Shown piece by piece: positions 701 to 6,691 of a stretch of 8,588 nt of DNA (position 1 is its first letter; every line of letters starts with the position of its first letter). The notes under the pieces were generated by a model that worked only from the letters and a program-made list of their open reading frames with translations, did not search any database and was not told the DNA's origin. The DNA is from a bacterium (GTDB taxonomy: Bacteria; UBP15; UBA6099; DSWB01): assembly GCA_020061125.1 (NCBI GenBank), contig JAGUYV010000032.1, positions 1 through 8,588 of the forward strand. Reading direction: 5' to 3'. A program made the translations under genes and the position numbers.

Positions 701-2176
701 TTAATCGGCGGCCGCGCGCTCCGCGCCGCCCTTGAACAGGCCGCTCAACTTGCTCGCCACCCGGAATGCGAACACATCCAGGGGAATGTAGAGCGCGAGC
801 AGGCTCTTGGGCATGTTGCGGCGCAGCAGCGATGTGATGCGCAGATAGAATGCAAGGAACTTGTACTGCTTCACGAGCAGGGCGCGGGGCTGTTCGTCGT
901 AGATGGGCACCGTGGGCAGATTGGGCATGCCGTCCCGGTACGGGGCGTACCAGTGGAAGCCCTCGGGAAGCACGCGCTTTTCGTGGGCGTAGGTGTCTAT
1001 GATGGTGCCGGGGTACACGCGCAGAATCTGCGTGGAGATGAAAGTGGCCTTAAGGGACAGGGCCTTGAGAAAGGTGCGGCGCAGGCCCGCGGGGTCGTCT
1101 CCGGGCAGGCCGATGAGCAGGTATATCTGCGCCTGCTTCACGCCGCTGCGGATGGCCTTGTCAATGAAATGCCTGGCCTTCTGGTAGTTCACCTTGCGGT
1201 GGATGAGCTTGTATGTGTTGGGGTTGAAGGTTTCGAGGCCGAAGTTGAGCTGCTGGCACCCGCTGCGGCCCATTTCCTCGAGCAACTCGTCGTTGAGGCT
1301 GTCGAAGCGCACGCTGGTGATCCACTTGAGCCAGGGGGTCTTCTCGCGGAACAGTTTCATGAGCTTGAGCGCGCGGTCCTTGTTGACCAGGAACTCGTCG
1401 TCGTAGAAGAAAATCACATCGTAGCCGTAGGTGTCGTGGATGTGCGTGATGCGCTCGATGACTTTTTCCGCGGAGAGTTGCGTGGATTTGCGGCCCCAGA
1501 AATGAGTGGCGCTGCAGTAGGCGCAGCCGAAGGGGCAGCCGCGGTTGGTGTTGACCTGCGTGCAGCGGTTTTTGTAGGGGCGGGCGCTGGGGTAGGCGCG
1601 CATGTCAATGAGGTGCCGGGCCGGGGGCGGCAGGGAATCCAGATCCTGCACGCGCGGCGGGCGGTCGTTGACCGCGATCCCGCCGTCGCGCCGGTACGCA
1701 ATGCCGGGGACTTCGGACAGGGGTTTGCCGTCCAGCAATTCGCGGATCACGGCTTCGCCCTCGCCGACGGCCACCAGATCCACGGCCGTGTGCCGCAGGG
1801 TGTCTTCCCATGTGAAGCTCACATGCGGGCCGCCCACGATGATCCAGATTTTCGGGCGCCGTTTCTTAATCTCGGCCGCCAGGAGCTGCATGTCGAACCG
1901 GGTTTCGGTGAAGCAGGTGATGCACAGCAGGTCCGGGTCCGCGGCCAGAATCGTGTCCGCGGCTTTTTCGATGGAATCGCGCTTGAGGGCCGCGTCGTAA
2001 ACCGTGACATGTTTGCCCATGGCCTCGGCGGTTCCGGCAAGGTACAGCAGGCCCAGGGGCGGATAGTATGAGGCGAACTGCGGGTTGATGGTGCTTGGCG
2101 CGACGCAGAAAAACACGCGGGTCACGCCGTCGAGCCTGGTGTCCGGGGTTGTGAGCGTTTCGTGCGTTTGGGTCAT
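701..2176 (-). CDS. B12-binding-domain radical SAM protein
   Basis: A 491-residue protein with the layout of cobalamin-binding radical SAM enzymes (class B-type methyltransferase/BchE-like group). Seen: N-terminal Rossmann-like B12-binding region, about residues 18-150, including YYPPLGLLYLAG (38-49), GGPH (115-118) and GEGE (138-141). The radical SAM core follows, with its cluster-binding cysteines C214, C218 and C221 in GCPFGCAYC; then FFYDDEF (256-262) and QLNFGLET (309-316). The C-terminal region carries aromatic and basic residues and may touch the membrane. Family knowledge: the core cleaves S-adenosylmethionine on a [4Fe-4S] cluster to make a 5'-deoxyadenosyl radical, and many members methylate or rearrange lipids, natural products or tetrapyrroles. 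The substrate here is unknown. AAAAGGA lies 4 nt before the ATG and supports this start. The downstream neighbour is a GT39 enzyme, which hints at envelope glycolipid or hopanoid-type chemistry, but that is inference. Confidence 0.9.
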   Translation of the reverse strand: MTQTHETLTTPDTRLDGVTRVFFCVAPSTINPQFASYYPPLGLLYLAGTAEAMGKHVTVYDAALKRDSIEKAADTILAADPDLLCITCFTETRFDMQLLAAEIKKRRPKIWIIVGGPHVSFTWEDTLRHTAVDLVAVGEGEAVIRELLDGKPLSEVPGIAYRRDGGIAVNDRPPRVQDLDSLPPPARHLIDMRAYPSARPYKNRCTQVNTNRGCPFGCAYCSATHFWGRKSTQLSAEKVIERITHIHDTYGYDVIFFYDDEFLVNKDRALKLMKLFREKTPWLKWITSVRFDSLNDELLEEMGRSGCQQLNFGLETFNPNTYKLIHRKVNYQKARHFIDKAIRSGVKQAQIYLLIGLPGDDPAGLRRTFLKALSLKATFISTQILRVYPGTIIDTYAHEKRVLPEGFHWYAPYRDGMPNLPTVPIYDEQPRALLVKQYKFLAFYLRITSLLRRNMPKSLLALYIPLDVFAFRVASKLSGLFKGGAERAAAD

Positions 2177-4144: not shown

Positions 4145-4825
4145 TTAGGATCCGCCGGGCTGCGCGACAAGCACATTCATGGCGCCGCCGTAATAAACAT
4201 GGAACTGGCCGTTCAGCCCGGCTCGGGCGGCGAACCCGCGCAGAGCGTCCCGCGCCATCCAGTCGCGATAGTTCCGGTAGTGAGCGCCCCCGGCCGCGCG
4301 CTCGGCCAGCCAGCATGCGCTCCGGCAGGGCAGAGCTGCAAGACTTGCCTTTAAGGGCAACGCATAATCCATGATCACAATGCGTCCACCGGGGCGCGCC
4401 ACTCGCTGCATCTCCCCAGTGAAGGAAAGCCGCAGCTTTTCCGGGATCTCGTGCAGCGCCAAGCTCATGGATACCAGATCAAAAATCCCGCTCTCGAAAG
4501 GAAGGCGGTCTGCGGAAGCGAGCACAAATTTCAAATTTTCATGCGCCCGCCCGCGCGCTTTGCAGAGCATATGCGGCGACATGTCCGCGGCCACGGCCAA
4601 CGCCCCGCTTTGTGAAAAAAGGAATGCCTGGGCGCCCGTTCCGCCGCACACATCAAGCGCCGTCATGCCCGGCATGGCTTGGGCGCACTCGCTCACGGCG
4701 CGGCGCATTCCCCACAATAGAGGCTCAATGACATAATTGTACACGCGTGCGGCGTTTTTATATGCGGCAATCTGGGGAGGCACCTTCGTTGACAGCAAAG
4801 AGCCGCCAGTCATCACGGCGCCCAT
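4145..4825 (-). CDS. class I SAM-dependent methyltransferase (Methyltransf_11/UbiE-like)
   Basis: A 226-residue Rossmann-fold methyltransferase that would transfer a methyl group from S-adenosylmethionine to an unidentified small molecule or lipid. Seen: motif I LDVCGGTGAQ at 57-66 (glycine-rich SAM loop), AADMSPHML at 79-87 with D81 placed to bind the SAM ribose, ASADRLPF at 103-110 for the adenine region, LALHE at 122-126, and the RPGG turn at 144-147 before a strand IVIMDYA. Length is normal for the UbiE/type-11 group. I chose the ATG at 4825 because it overlaps the stop codon of the upstream gene by one base (TGATG), a typical translational coupling arrangement; ATG at 4813 is the alternative. 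The frame stays open upstream to 5098, but that part overlaps the upstream gene and has no family resemblance. Substrate unknown; quinone, porphyrin or lipid methylation are all possible. Confidence 0.85.
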   Translation of the reverse strand: MGAVMTGGSLLSTKVPPQIAAYKNAARVYNYVIEPLLWGMRRAVSECAQAMPGMTALDVCGGTGAQAFLFSQSGALAVAADMSPHMLCKARGRAHENLKFVLASADRLPFESGIFDLVSMSLALHEIPEKLRLSFTGEMQRVARPGGRIVIMDYALPLKASLAALPCRSACWLAERAAGGAHYRNYRDWMARDALRGFAARAGLNGQFHVYYGGAMNVLVAQPGGS

Positions 4826-5319
4826 CACTGCGCGGTTTCCGGGAGTTCGCACCCGCTGCGCTGGGAGAGATCGGCAAGGGACAGTACGCCGGTAACCTTC
4901 TGTCCGCCGGACACGAACCATGTGGGCAGTTTCTCCACGCCCCTGTCCTTGCACATCTGGAGCACGCCGCCGCCCGCGGGATCCGCGCATTCCACATAGT
5001 CCACATGCTTGAAAGAACTGCTGAATAGCGTCTTTTGCTCCGTGCAGTAGCTGCACCAGGATGCGCCATACATTTTGAAACCCTTTCGGGTCAGGCATTT
5101 GGCGAAATCATCGTATGGCCCCGGCCGCGTGCCGGAATACACCGCCATTCCGCCGAAGATCAGGACGACAATCAGCGCCACACCAGCGGCGATGACGAGA
5201 TTCTGTTTGCCCTTAAGCCCGCCCGCGGGTTTTGCGTCTTTCTCGTAACAGCAACTCTTGTATTTCTTGCCGCTGCCGCACGGGCAAGGGGCGTTCCGGC
5301 TTGTTGCGGTCTCGTTCAT
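4825..5319 (-). CDS. SEC-C motif / single-span / VKOR-type thioredoxin-like fusion protein
   Basis: A 164-residue protein in three parts. Residues 11-24 are a SEC-C zinc-binding motif (PCPCGSGKKYKSCC; ligands C12, C14, C23, C24). A linker with several lysines leads to one membrane span at about 41-61. Residues 68-160 resemble the thioredoxin-like domain found fused to bacterial VKOR: FAKCL at 72-76, MYGASWCSYC with redox pair C89/C92, YVEC with C111, C123, and LPTW with the likely cis-proline P132, ending in SGC (C157). Positive charge before the span predicts SEC-C in the cytoplasm and the redox domain in the periplasm. The likely role is disulfide exchange on exported proteins; a link to the Sec machinery through the SEC-C motif is inference. 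GAGG lies 9 nt before the ATG at 5319 but only 3 nt before the in-frame ATG at 5325, so 5319 is preferred. No VKOR gene is in the window. Confidence 0.82.
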   Translation of the reverse strand: MNETATSRNAPCPCGSGKKYKSCCYEKDAKPAGGLKGKQNLVIAAGVALIVVLIFGGMAVYSGTRPGPYDDFAKCLTRKGFKMYGASWCSYCTEQKTLFSSSFKHVDYVECADPAGGGVLQMCKDRGVEKLPTWFVSGGQKVTGVLSLADLSQRSGCELPETAQ

Positions 5320-5375
5320 GGTCATATACCTCGCATTCAGCCCGGAGCGTGTCCGAGTCCCGATCTTATGGATTC

Positions 5376-5406
5376 ATTATAAAAGCGCTTATTCCCGCCA
5401 TATCAA
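5376..5406 (-). promoter_or_regulatory. candidate sigma-70-type promoter for the thioredoxin/methyltransferase pair
   Basis: On the minus strand TTGATA (5401-5406) and a consensus TATAAT (5376-5381) are separated by 19 nt, slightly longer than ideal. The -35 overlaps the stop codon of the lipoprotein gene. Predicted transcription would start near 5369, giving a leader of about 50 nt. This suggests the pair can be expressed apart from the upstream His/Met-rich unit. Confidence 0.5.
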
Positions 5407-5870
5407 TTCCCGGCGGAAACCATCACCGTGACCATGGTTTCCTGGTCCATCATGTGTCCGCCGCCCATCATGTGTCCGTCGGATGCGCCCGTAATTCCTG
5501 CGTCGAAGTGCATGGTGTGCGTGGCTCCCGCCATCATGGGTTCCGCGGGTGTGAATGTCATCATGGTGTTGCCTTCGCTCCAGGCCGCGGCGCCGGGCAC
5601 GGGCGTTCCGGTCACTGCATCACCGCGATACATATGAACGCGGCTTTCCACCGACGCCGTGTCCATTGGCATGCTGAACTGTACCGCAATCGTGGCCGTG
5701 GCGCCGTTCGCCGGTTCGGGCGCCTGGTTTGCTGAAACGGACAGGATTCTGGGCTGCTGTGCAGCGGCTGGAGCGGACGCAGCCGTGCTTCCTCCTCCGC
5801 ATCCGGCCAGGGTTGCCGCAAATCCTGCTCCCATTAATGCGGCGCATGCGGCAAAAATTGTTTTCAACAT
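5403..5870 (-). CDS. Met-rich lipoprotein with Big_5-like Ig domain
   Basis: A 155-residue predicted lipoprotein. Seen: signal peptide with lipobox LAGC, so C24 would be lipidated; a short Ser/Ala linker; then one Ig-like domain at about 41-153 resembling the bacterial Big_5/SbsA-Ig family, with the typical FSMPMD at 65-70 and TMMTFTPAEPM later. The mature part carries 14 methionines and 5 histidines in about 130 residues, including the cluster HMMGGGHMM at 133-141 near the end of the domain. Such His/Met clusters bind Cu(I) or Ag(I) in known copper proteins, and CopC has a comparable beta-sandwich fold; copper binding here is inference. AAGGAG sits 7 nt before the ATG. The gene lies 37 bp after the His/Met-rich exported protein gene and is probably in its operon. 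Confidence 0.75.
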   Translation of the reverse strand: MLKTIFAACAALMGAGFAATLAGCGGGSTAASAPAAAQQPRILSVSANQAPEPANGATATIAVQFSMPMDTASVESRVHMYRGDAVTGTPVPGAAAWSEGNTMMTFTPAEPMMAGATHTMHFDAGITGASDGHMMGGGHMMDQETMVTVMVSAGN

Positions 5871-5907: not shown

Positions 5908-6426
5908 TCAGTGCTGATGCTGCGAATGATCGCCGGAGTCAGGCTGTGAGTGTTCGCTGCCTTGTTCCGTGGACGAGCCGGGGGCAGAGCCGCCCATGTG
6001 TTGCATGTGGCTGCCCATGGAGGAATGCAGTGCGGAAATGGCGCTGTCCAGAAACAGGCCTATGACAGCGCCTGTTGCGGCGTCCACATACAGGGTTGCG
6101 CTGTCCCCGCCGGGCATTTTCACGGGTGTCGCGTAGACCGGCATGCGGCCGAACTGCTCAAGCGCCGTTTCCCCGGCTTCGGCGCCGTGGAGATTTTCGG
6201 CCACGAAATCCTTGGATGTCTGCGTAGCTGTTTCCACCGCAACCAGAACCCCCATGCCGGTCGTGCTCCCGTGCATTTGCTGGTGACCGGATGTTTCGTC
6301 GTCGTGAACCATGGAATGCACCATGGATTTCACTTTTTTGATAGACATGCCCCCGCAGGCGTAAGCCGGCATGCTCACGCTGCCGATTGTGACTGCCGCC
6401 AGAGCCGCCATCGCAATTGTTTTCAT
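5908..6426 (-). CDS. His/Met-rich exported protein, unknown family
   Basis: I do not recognise the family of this 172-residue protein. Seen: a signal peptide with a likely AYA-C cleavage site after residue 23 (Y at -2 argues against a lipobox); a basic-amphipathic stretch with M35, H37, M39 and H41; a middle region whose ATLYVDAATGAVIG (110-123) is reminiscent of a beta-hairpin as in PepSY-like domains; and a C-terminal tail from about 134 dense in histidine and methionine (HSSMGSHMQHM, then HSQHQH at the extreme end). There are 12 histidines in all and 10 methionines in the mature part, so periplasmic metal binding (copper, nickel or zinc) is plausible. The frame is open upstream to 6609, but the ATG at 6426 is chosen because the signal peptide begins there and AAAGGA lies 10 nt before it. 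It is the first gene of a probable operon with the Met-rich lipoprotein. Confidence 0.75.
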   Translation of the reverse strand: MKTIAMAALAAVTIGSVSMPAYACGGMSIKKVKSMVHSMVHDDETSGHQQMHGSTTGMGVLVAVETATQTSKDFVAENLHGAEAGETALEQFGRMPVYATPVKMPGGDSATLYVDAATGAVIGLFLDSAISALHSSMGSHMQHMGGSAPGSSTEQGSEHSQPDSGDHSQHQH

Positions 6427-6474
6427 TTCCGCACCGTCCTTTAAGTTTTTTGCCACAAGGCCGCACTTGTATGA

Positions 6475-6490
6475 TTCAAGATCCGTGCCA
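6475..6490 (-). promoter_or_regulatory. candidate sigma-54 (-24/-12) promoter for the His/Met-rich operon
   Basis: The minus strand reads TGGCACG, 4 nt, TTGAA. The sigma-54 consensus is TGGCACG-N4-TTGCW, so the -24 half is perfect, the spacing is exact and only the C of the -12 GC pair is changed to A. The start would fall near 6464, leaving a leader of about 38 nt. No sigma-70 promoter of similar quality is visible in this gap. The changed -12 base is a real weakness. Confidence 0.4.
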
Positions 6491-6510
6491 TCAGCACCCC
6501 GGATTTCAGA

Positions 6511-6564
6511 GCCGCAAAATCCCGCGTGGAGACAAGGTTTTTTTGCGCGGCCGGATTTTGCGGC
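6511..6564. repeat. perfect 12-bp inverted repeat with 30-bp spacer
   Basis: GCCGCAAAATCC at 6511-6522 is matched by GGATTTTGCGGC at 6553-6564. The spacer carries a run of seven T on the plus strand and short CGCG segments that could extend pairing. A third partial copy of the half-site (GGATTT) is at 6501-6506. Relative to the candidate sigma-54 start near 6464 the arms lie about 47-100 bp upstream, a place where activators commonly bind. An RNA hairpin is the alternative reading. Confidence 0.6.
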
Positions 6565-6691
6565 CCGGGGGGTGCGCAGTTTGCGCTGACGGTCTTCTGT
6601 CAGGCGCATGCCGAATAATCGTCATACCGGCAAATGCGTTTGTGGCAGGGTGTTGGGTTTCTTGAATGGCTTGTGGCCGGGAACCGCAGTG

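Follow-up and report, generated by a model that had tools for sequence, protein, structure and literature searches.

A SEC-C motif joined to a membrane-anchored, stand-alone VKOR-type thioredoxin, a plausible partner of a separate VKOR in a bacterial order

The stretch of DNA analyzed here (the window; 8,588 nucleotides, contig JAGUYV010000032.1 of assembly GCA_020061125.1) encodes, on the minus strand at 4825..5325 with the stop codon included, a protein of 166 aa in the list of open reading frames that joins an N-terminal SEC-C metal-binding motif, one transmembrane helix and a thioredoxin domain of the type found fused to VKOR. We hypothesize, with a probability of roughly 0.6, that this protein carries disulfides as a stand-alone thioredoxin of the VKOR type anchored in the membrane, a DsbA-like oxidase recharged by a separate VKOR, whose cytosolic SEC-C tail perhaps lies near ribosomes. 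The architecture is conserved in a second family of the same order, and the genome that encodes it has a separate VKOR and no detected DsbB.

The identity of the redox domain (residues 73–163; 4837..5109, minus strand) carries most of the argument. By phmmer, residues 59–163 match the VKOR/thioredoxin structures 3kp8, 3kp9 and 4nv2 with an E-value of about 8e-17, as against 2e-5 for glutaredoxin. An AlphaFold2 model built on 21 aligned sequences (mean pLDDT 82.5, with most of the thioredoxin domain above 90) places a helix at residues 39–64 ahead of a confident thioredoxin fold, and the best PDB match of the model is again 3kp8, the thioredoxin-like domain of VKOR (Foldseek TM-score 0.88 on the target). 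The same preference over generic thioredoxins is seen in the Foldseek E-values (5e-9 for the VKOR-type domain and 9.5e-4 for an ordinary thioredoxin) and in VIA-align, where superposition on the VKOR thioredoxin reaches Z 15.8 with an rmsd of 2.0 over 93 residues and other thioredoxins reach Z of about 8 (8.2). The domain contains the CxxC motif C91-S-Y-C94, a second cysteine pair (C113/C125), an L-P-T-W loop with P134 in the cis-Pro position, and an extra pair, C77/C159; C91, C94, C113, C125, P134 and W136 are invariant across the 21 sequences. The initial annotation had likened this part to the partner domain normally fused to VKOR, naming this loop and all of these cysteines except C77, and both its class assignment and its residues are borne out.

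Pfam, by comparison, returned SEC-C as the sole family in the window protein and no thioredoxin match. The DSBA and Thioredoxin_4 profiles did not match at E-values up to 1. Nor is the protein itself a VKOR (PF07884), as it has one helix and no multi-helix quinone-binding core in either the Pfam search or the predicted model. Its closest characterized likeness is the C-terminal domain of the Synechococcus VKOR homolog (3kp8, 3kp9 and 4nv2), which is the same domain with the same CxxC and P-T-W loop; however, that domain is fused to the VKOR core and lacks the C77/C159 pair, whereas here one anchor helix and the SEC-C tail stand in the place of the core. The likeness to DsbA, working with DsbB or VKOR, is one of proposed role, that of a separate thioredoxin-fold oxidase that depends on a quinone-linked membrane enzyme for recharging, although the domain is of the VKOR-fused type.

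The SEC-C motif occupies residues 10–27 (5245..5298, minus strand) and matches PF02810 with an E-value of 4.9e-9 and 36.3 bits, above the curated cut-off of 20.4; the pattern CxCGSGxxxKxCC is present, with C14, C16, C25 and C26 as ligands (CxCx8CC), all four of which had been named at the outset. For neither this motif nor the thioredoxin domain can the match be put down to chance. The predicted model reaches a pLDDT of just 50–60 in this part. The CxCx8CC motif with its basic consensus is shared with the C-terminal tail of SecA and the tails of YecA and YchJ, but here it opens a membrane protein with one span and no SecA motor. Between the motif and the redox domain, a predicted single transmembrane helix (residues about 39–64; 5134..5211, minus strand) is preceded by a K/R-rich segment and followed by a segment of balanced charge, and the ortholog described below (L042) has the same arrangement with RRRRR ahead of its helix. 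Under the positive-inside rule, this charge pattern in both orthologs argues for a cytosolic SEC-C motif and a CxxC domain outside the membrane, the topology that had been predicted.

Two in-frame ATG codons, at 5325 and 5319, are equally possible starts of the gene, and GAGG lies just 5′ of both. Because the initial annotation counted from the second (4825–5319), each of its residue numbers falls 2 short of ours: C12, C14, C23 and C24 correspond to C14, C16, C25 and C26; C89 and C92 to C91 and C94; and C111, C123 and C157 to C113, C125 and C159. A promoter scan around the gene gave one site, at chance level. The stop codon overlaps the ATG of a UbiE/MenG-like class I methyltransferase gene (4145..4826, minus strand; PF08241 2.4e-16, PF01209 5.3e-16) in the sequence TGATG, so that the two genes are probably translationally coupled; the match of the methyltransferase to the NCBIfam demethylmenaquinone methyltransferase model (7.8e-21) is far below the equivalog cut-off. 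Elsewhere in the window, 701–2176 (minus strand) encodes a B12-binding radical SAM protein that is kin to several methylase/BchE-type families and falls below all NCBIfam cut-offs.

The same architecture, at 43% identity over its length, is encoded in the genome of bacterium isolate Dive96_bin1.91 (JAJRTR010000072.1), which belongs to another family of the same order; this ortholog has retained the helix, all four cysteines of SEC-C and those of the redox domain, the CxxC pair included. When 386 genomes were surveyed for the architecture, as had been suggested, with a profile of both proteins, these two alone contained the full combination. Two short peptide patterns searched against 84,980 species genomes gave 22 loci, a narrow scan since both patterns derive from two sequences, and only one of the 22, the Dive96 protein, has SEC-C. 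Anchored or lipoprotein-like stand-alone loci that lack SEC-C came from Yanofskybacteria, Nano-, Woese- and Pacearchaeota, Moorena and Pseudanabaena, and the Luteimonas loci are frames with VKOR-like helices. Patescibacteria, DPANN archaea and Cyanobacteria all have stand-alone anchored VKOR-type thioredoxins without SEC-C. A literature search that reached few subscription papers returned no report of a thioredoxin that carries SEC-C; the pairing of the two is the only new part, the redox group itself being known.

In our phylogeny the SEC-C forms fall in one branch with the stand-alone forms of Patescibacteria and DPANN (support 97/98), apart from the fused and the cyanobacterial forms; the pairing of the two SEC-C forms within that branch is weak (81/75). 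The Patescibacteria and DPANN proteins (for example L043 from Yanofskybacteria, L044 from Nanoarchaeota and L045 from AR20) consist of an N-terminal helix or lipoprotein-like anchor followed by the domain with the same six cysteines and, unlike the window protein, have no SEC-C tail. The extra pair C77/C159 marks this branch: 13 aligned rows have both cysteines, and four more have C77, with the C159 position lying beyond the 85-residue alignment window and the full sequences ending in ..GC. The remaining rows lack both. A 283-aa frame counted as fused (L069) has the pair as well. This co-occurrence suggests that C77 and C159 form a disulfide with each other.

The search for a separate VKOR or DsbB that the initial annotation had proposed returned the former. 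The genome encodes a single VKOR of 258 aa, unfused to a thioredoxin (contig C387, L003:1078-1854, plus strand), with a CPYC motif and loop cysteines, and DsbB has no match in the same assembly, which is 79% complete. The remark that no VKOR is present is accordingly right for the protein, in which SEC-C is the one Pfam family and there is one helix, and wrong for the genome, so that a missing VKOR is rejected; the view of the window protein as a stand-alone partner fits this arrangement, and we consider it a plausible partner of this VKOR. The core of this VKOR is preceded by an additional N-terminal helix and a long, charged loop, and the Dive96 VKOR (L091:6015-6791) has a similar extension. 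Prokaryotic VKOR and DsbB hand on to quinones the electrons that they receive from thioredoxin-like oxidoreductases (PMC4555120, PMC11208910). By this chemistry, C91–C94 outside the membrane would take its oxidizing equivalent from the separate quinone-reducing VKOR and would pass disulfides to exported proteins, which is the work of DsbA.

Several observations count against this role. No operon shared by the VKOR and SEC-C/thioredoxin genes was found, the VKOR lying on another contig. VKOR occurs in all six other members of the order, which favors the role, yet five of the seven order genomes, those of family f3, have VKOR and neither the SEC-C/thioredoxin protein nor another VKOR-type thioredoxin. 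A DsbA-like Thioredoxin_4 protein is encoded in four of the five f3 genomes and in the Dive96 genome, so that the latter has at least two candidate VKOR partners; in the genome of the window protein, as assembled to 79% completeness, the Thioredoxin_4 match is weak and below cut-off. A further candidate redox partner in that genome is a thioredoxin-like protein of 139 aa with a membrane anchor and the motif CGVC (L094:3406-3825, minus strand), next to which a 1008-aa protein with membrane helices is encoded. Metal-related or Met/His-rich proteins in both neighborhoods would also suit a stress role. On balance, we regard the role of VKOR-charged oxidase as likely, although the sequence by itself is compatible with an isomerase too, the other option raised in the initial annotation.

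One alternative bears on the tail alone and does not conflict with a VKOR-charged oxidase: the SEC-C motif may be just a small metal-stabilized N-terminal cap or an iron or redox sensor, with no link to ribosomes or Sec, in a protein that otherwise works as its anchored relatives without SEC-C do. We place this somewhat below even odds. SEC-C is missing from relatives that share the redox domain and the anchor, the motif is present on many unrelated proteins, a search of seven genomes of the order gave no SecB, and work cited in PMC8076867 and PMC6620043 reports that SecA-like motifs can bind iron. Conversely, the four ligands and the basic residues of the motif (RNAPCPCGSG.KYK.CC.EKD) are kept between two families at an overall identity of 43%. 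In the role favored here, too, the motif would bind a metal ion.

Less probable, and in our view unlikely, is that the protein acts in the periplasm as a reductase or isomerase on metal-stressed proteins, where it would repair wrong disulfides or keep the thiols of metal proteins reduced and would be fed by a DsbD/CcdA-type membrane reductase in place of VKOR. Such an enzyme would resemble the Scs-type thioredoxins, which are membrane-tethered. It is a rival on account of the metal-related neighbors in both genomes: the two genes upstream in the window encode secreted Met/His-rich and possibly metal-binding proteins (5908-6609 and 5403-5870, minus strand; PepSY-like, at E 0.033 below cut-off, and Big_5), and among the neighbors of the Dive96 gene are those for small Cys/His-rich proteins, a transporter of the SBF family, a DUF3347 protein and a heavy-metal P-type ATPase that has HMA domains. 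These neighborhoods are nevertheless not a common one, since a search with six window proteins gave a clear match in the Dive96 neighborhood for none but the SEC-C protein, and the domain is of the VKOR partner type by both sequence and fold in a genome where VKOR is present. The reductase reading draws further on a genome from an unrelated phylum (G179), in which a 152-aa protein of SEC-C, linker and helix (L093:4196-4654, plus strand; 40% identity over the first 74 residues) is encoded by the gene that immediately follows those for a DsbD_TM/CcdA protein and a TlpA-like thioredoxin; it has a different cysteine-rich end (CPCGC...C...C) with no Pfam family above cut-off. We reject the explanation that misassembly or accident fused a piece of SEC-C to a thioredoxin, for although the assembly is fragmented (513 contigs, 79% complete), the independently assembled JAJRTR010000072.1 has the same continuous architecture without a stop or frame break.

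For a VKOR-charged oxidase, the SEC-C tail suggests a further step. The SEC-C tail of SecA binds 70S ribosomes (PMC6620043), and its ligands are SecB, the best known of them, and ribosomes (PMC6620043, PMC8076867). The tie to SecA and Sec export raised in the initial annotation was not established: the lack of a SecB match in the seven order genomes makes docking on SecB, and any tie mediated by it, unlikely, and the ribosome link comes by analogy. A tail that worked like that of SecA would therefore more likely have the ribosome as its ligand, and ribosome binding is possible; such contact would keep the enzyme near sites of co-translational export. The fuller proposal, that the tail keeps a disulfide donor bound, at the translocon, to ribosomes or to SecA and so couples disulfide formation to co-translational export, with SEC-C tails a recurrent device for periplasmic redox parts, seems doubtful to us. 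The G179 protein, a single case (the phyla of G179 and G325 contribute two and four genomes to the set), suggests that membrane redox parts may have acquired SEC-C tails on more than one occasion.

Should the tail of this protein bind ribosomes or the Sec machine, it would provide a one-protein bacterial link between export and disulfide formation, an idea comparable to the oxidoreductases at the ER translocon. Even without a tether, the tailed version joins a little-described group of stand-alone VKOR-type thioredoxins, a domain that Pfam missed in this protein.
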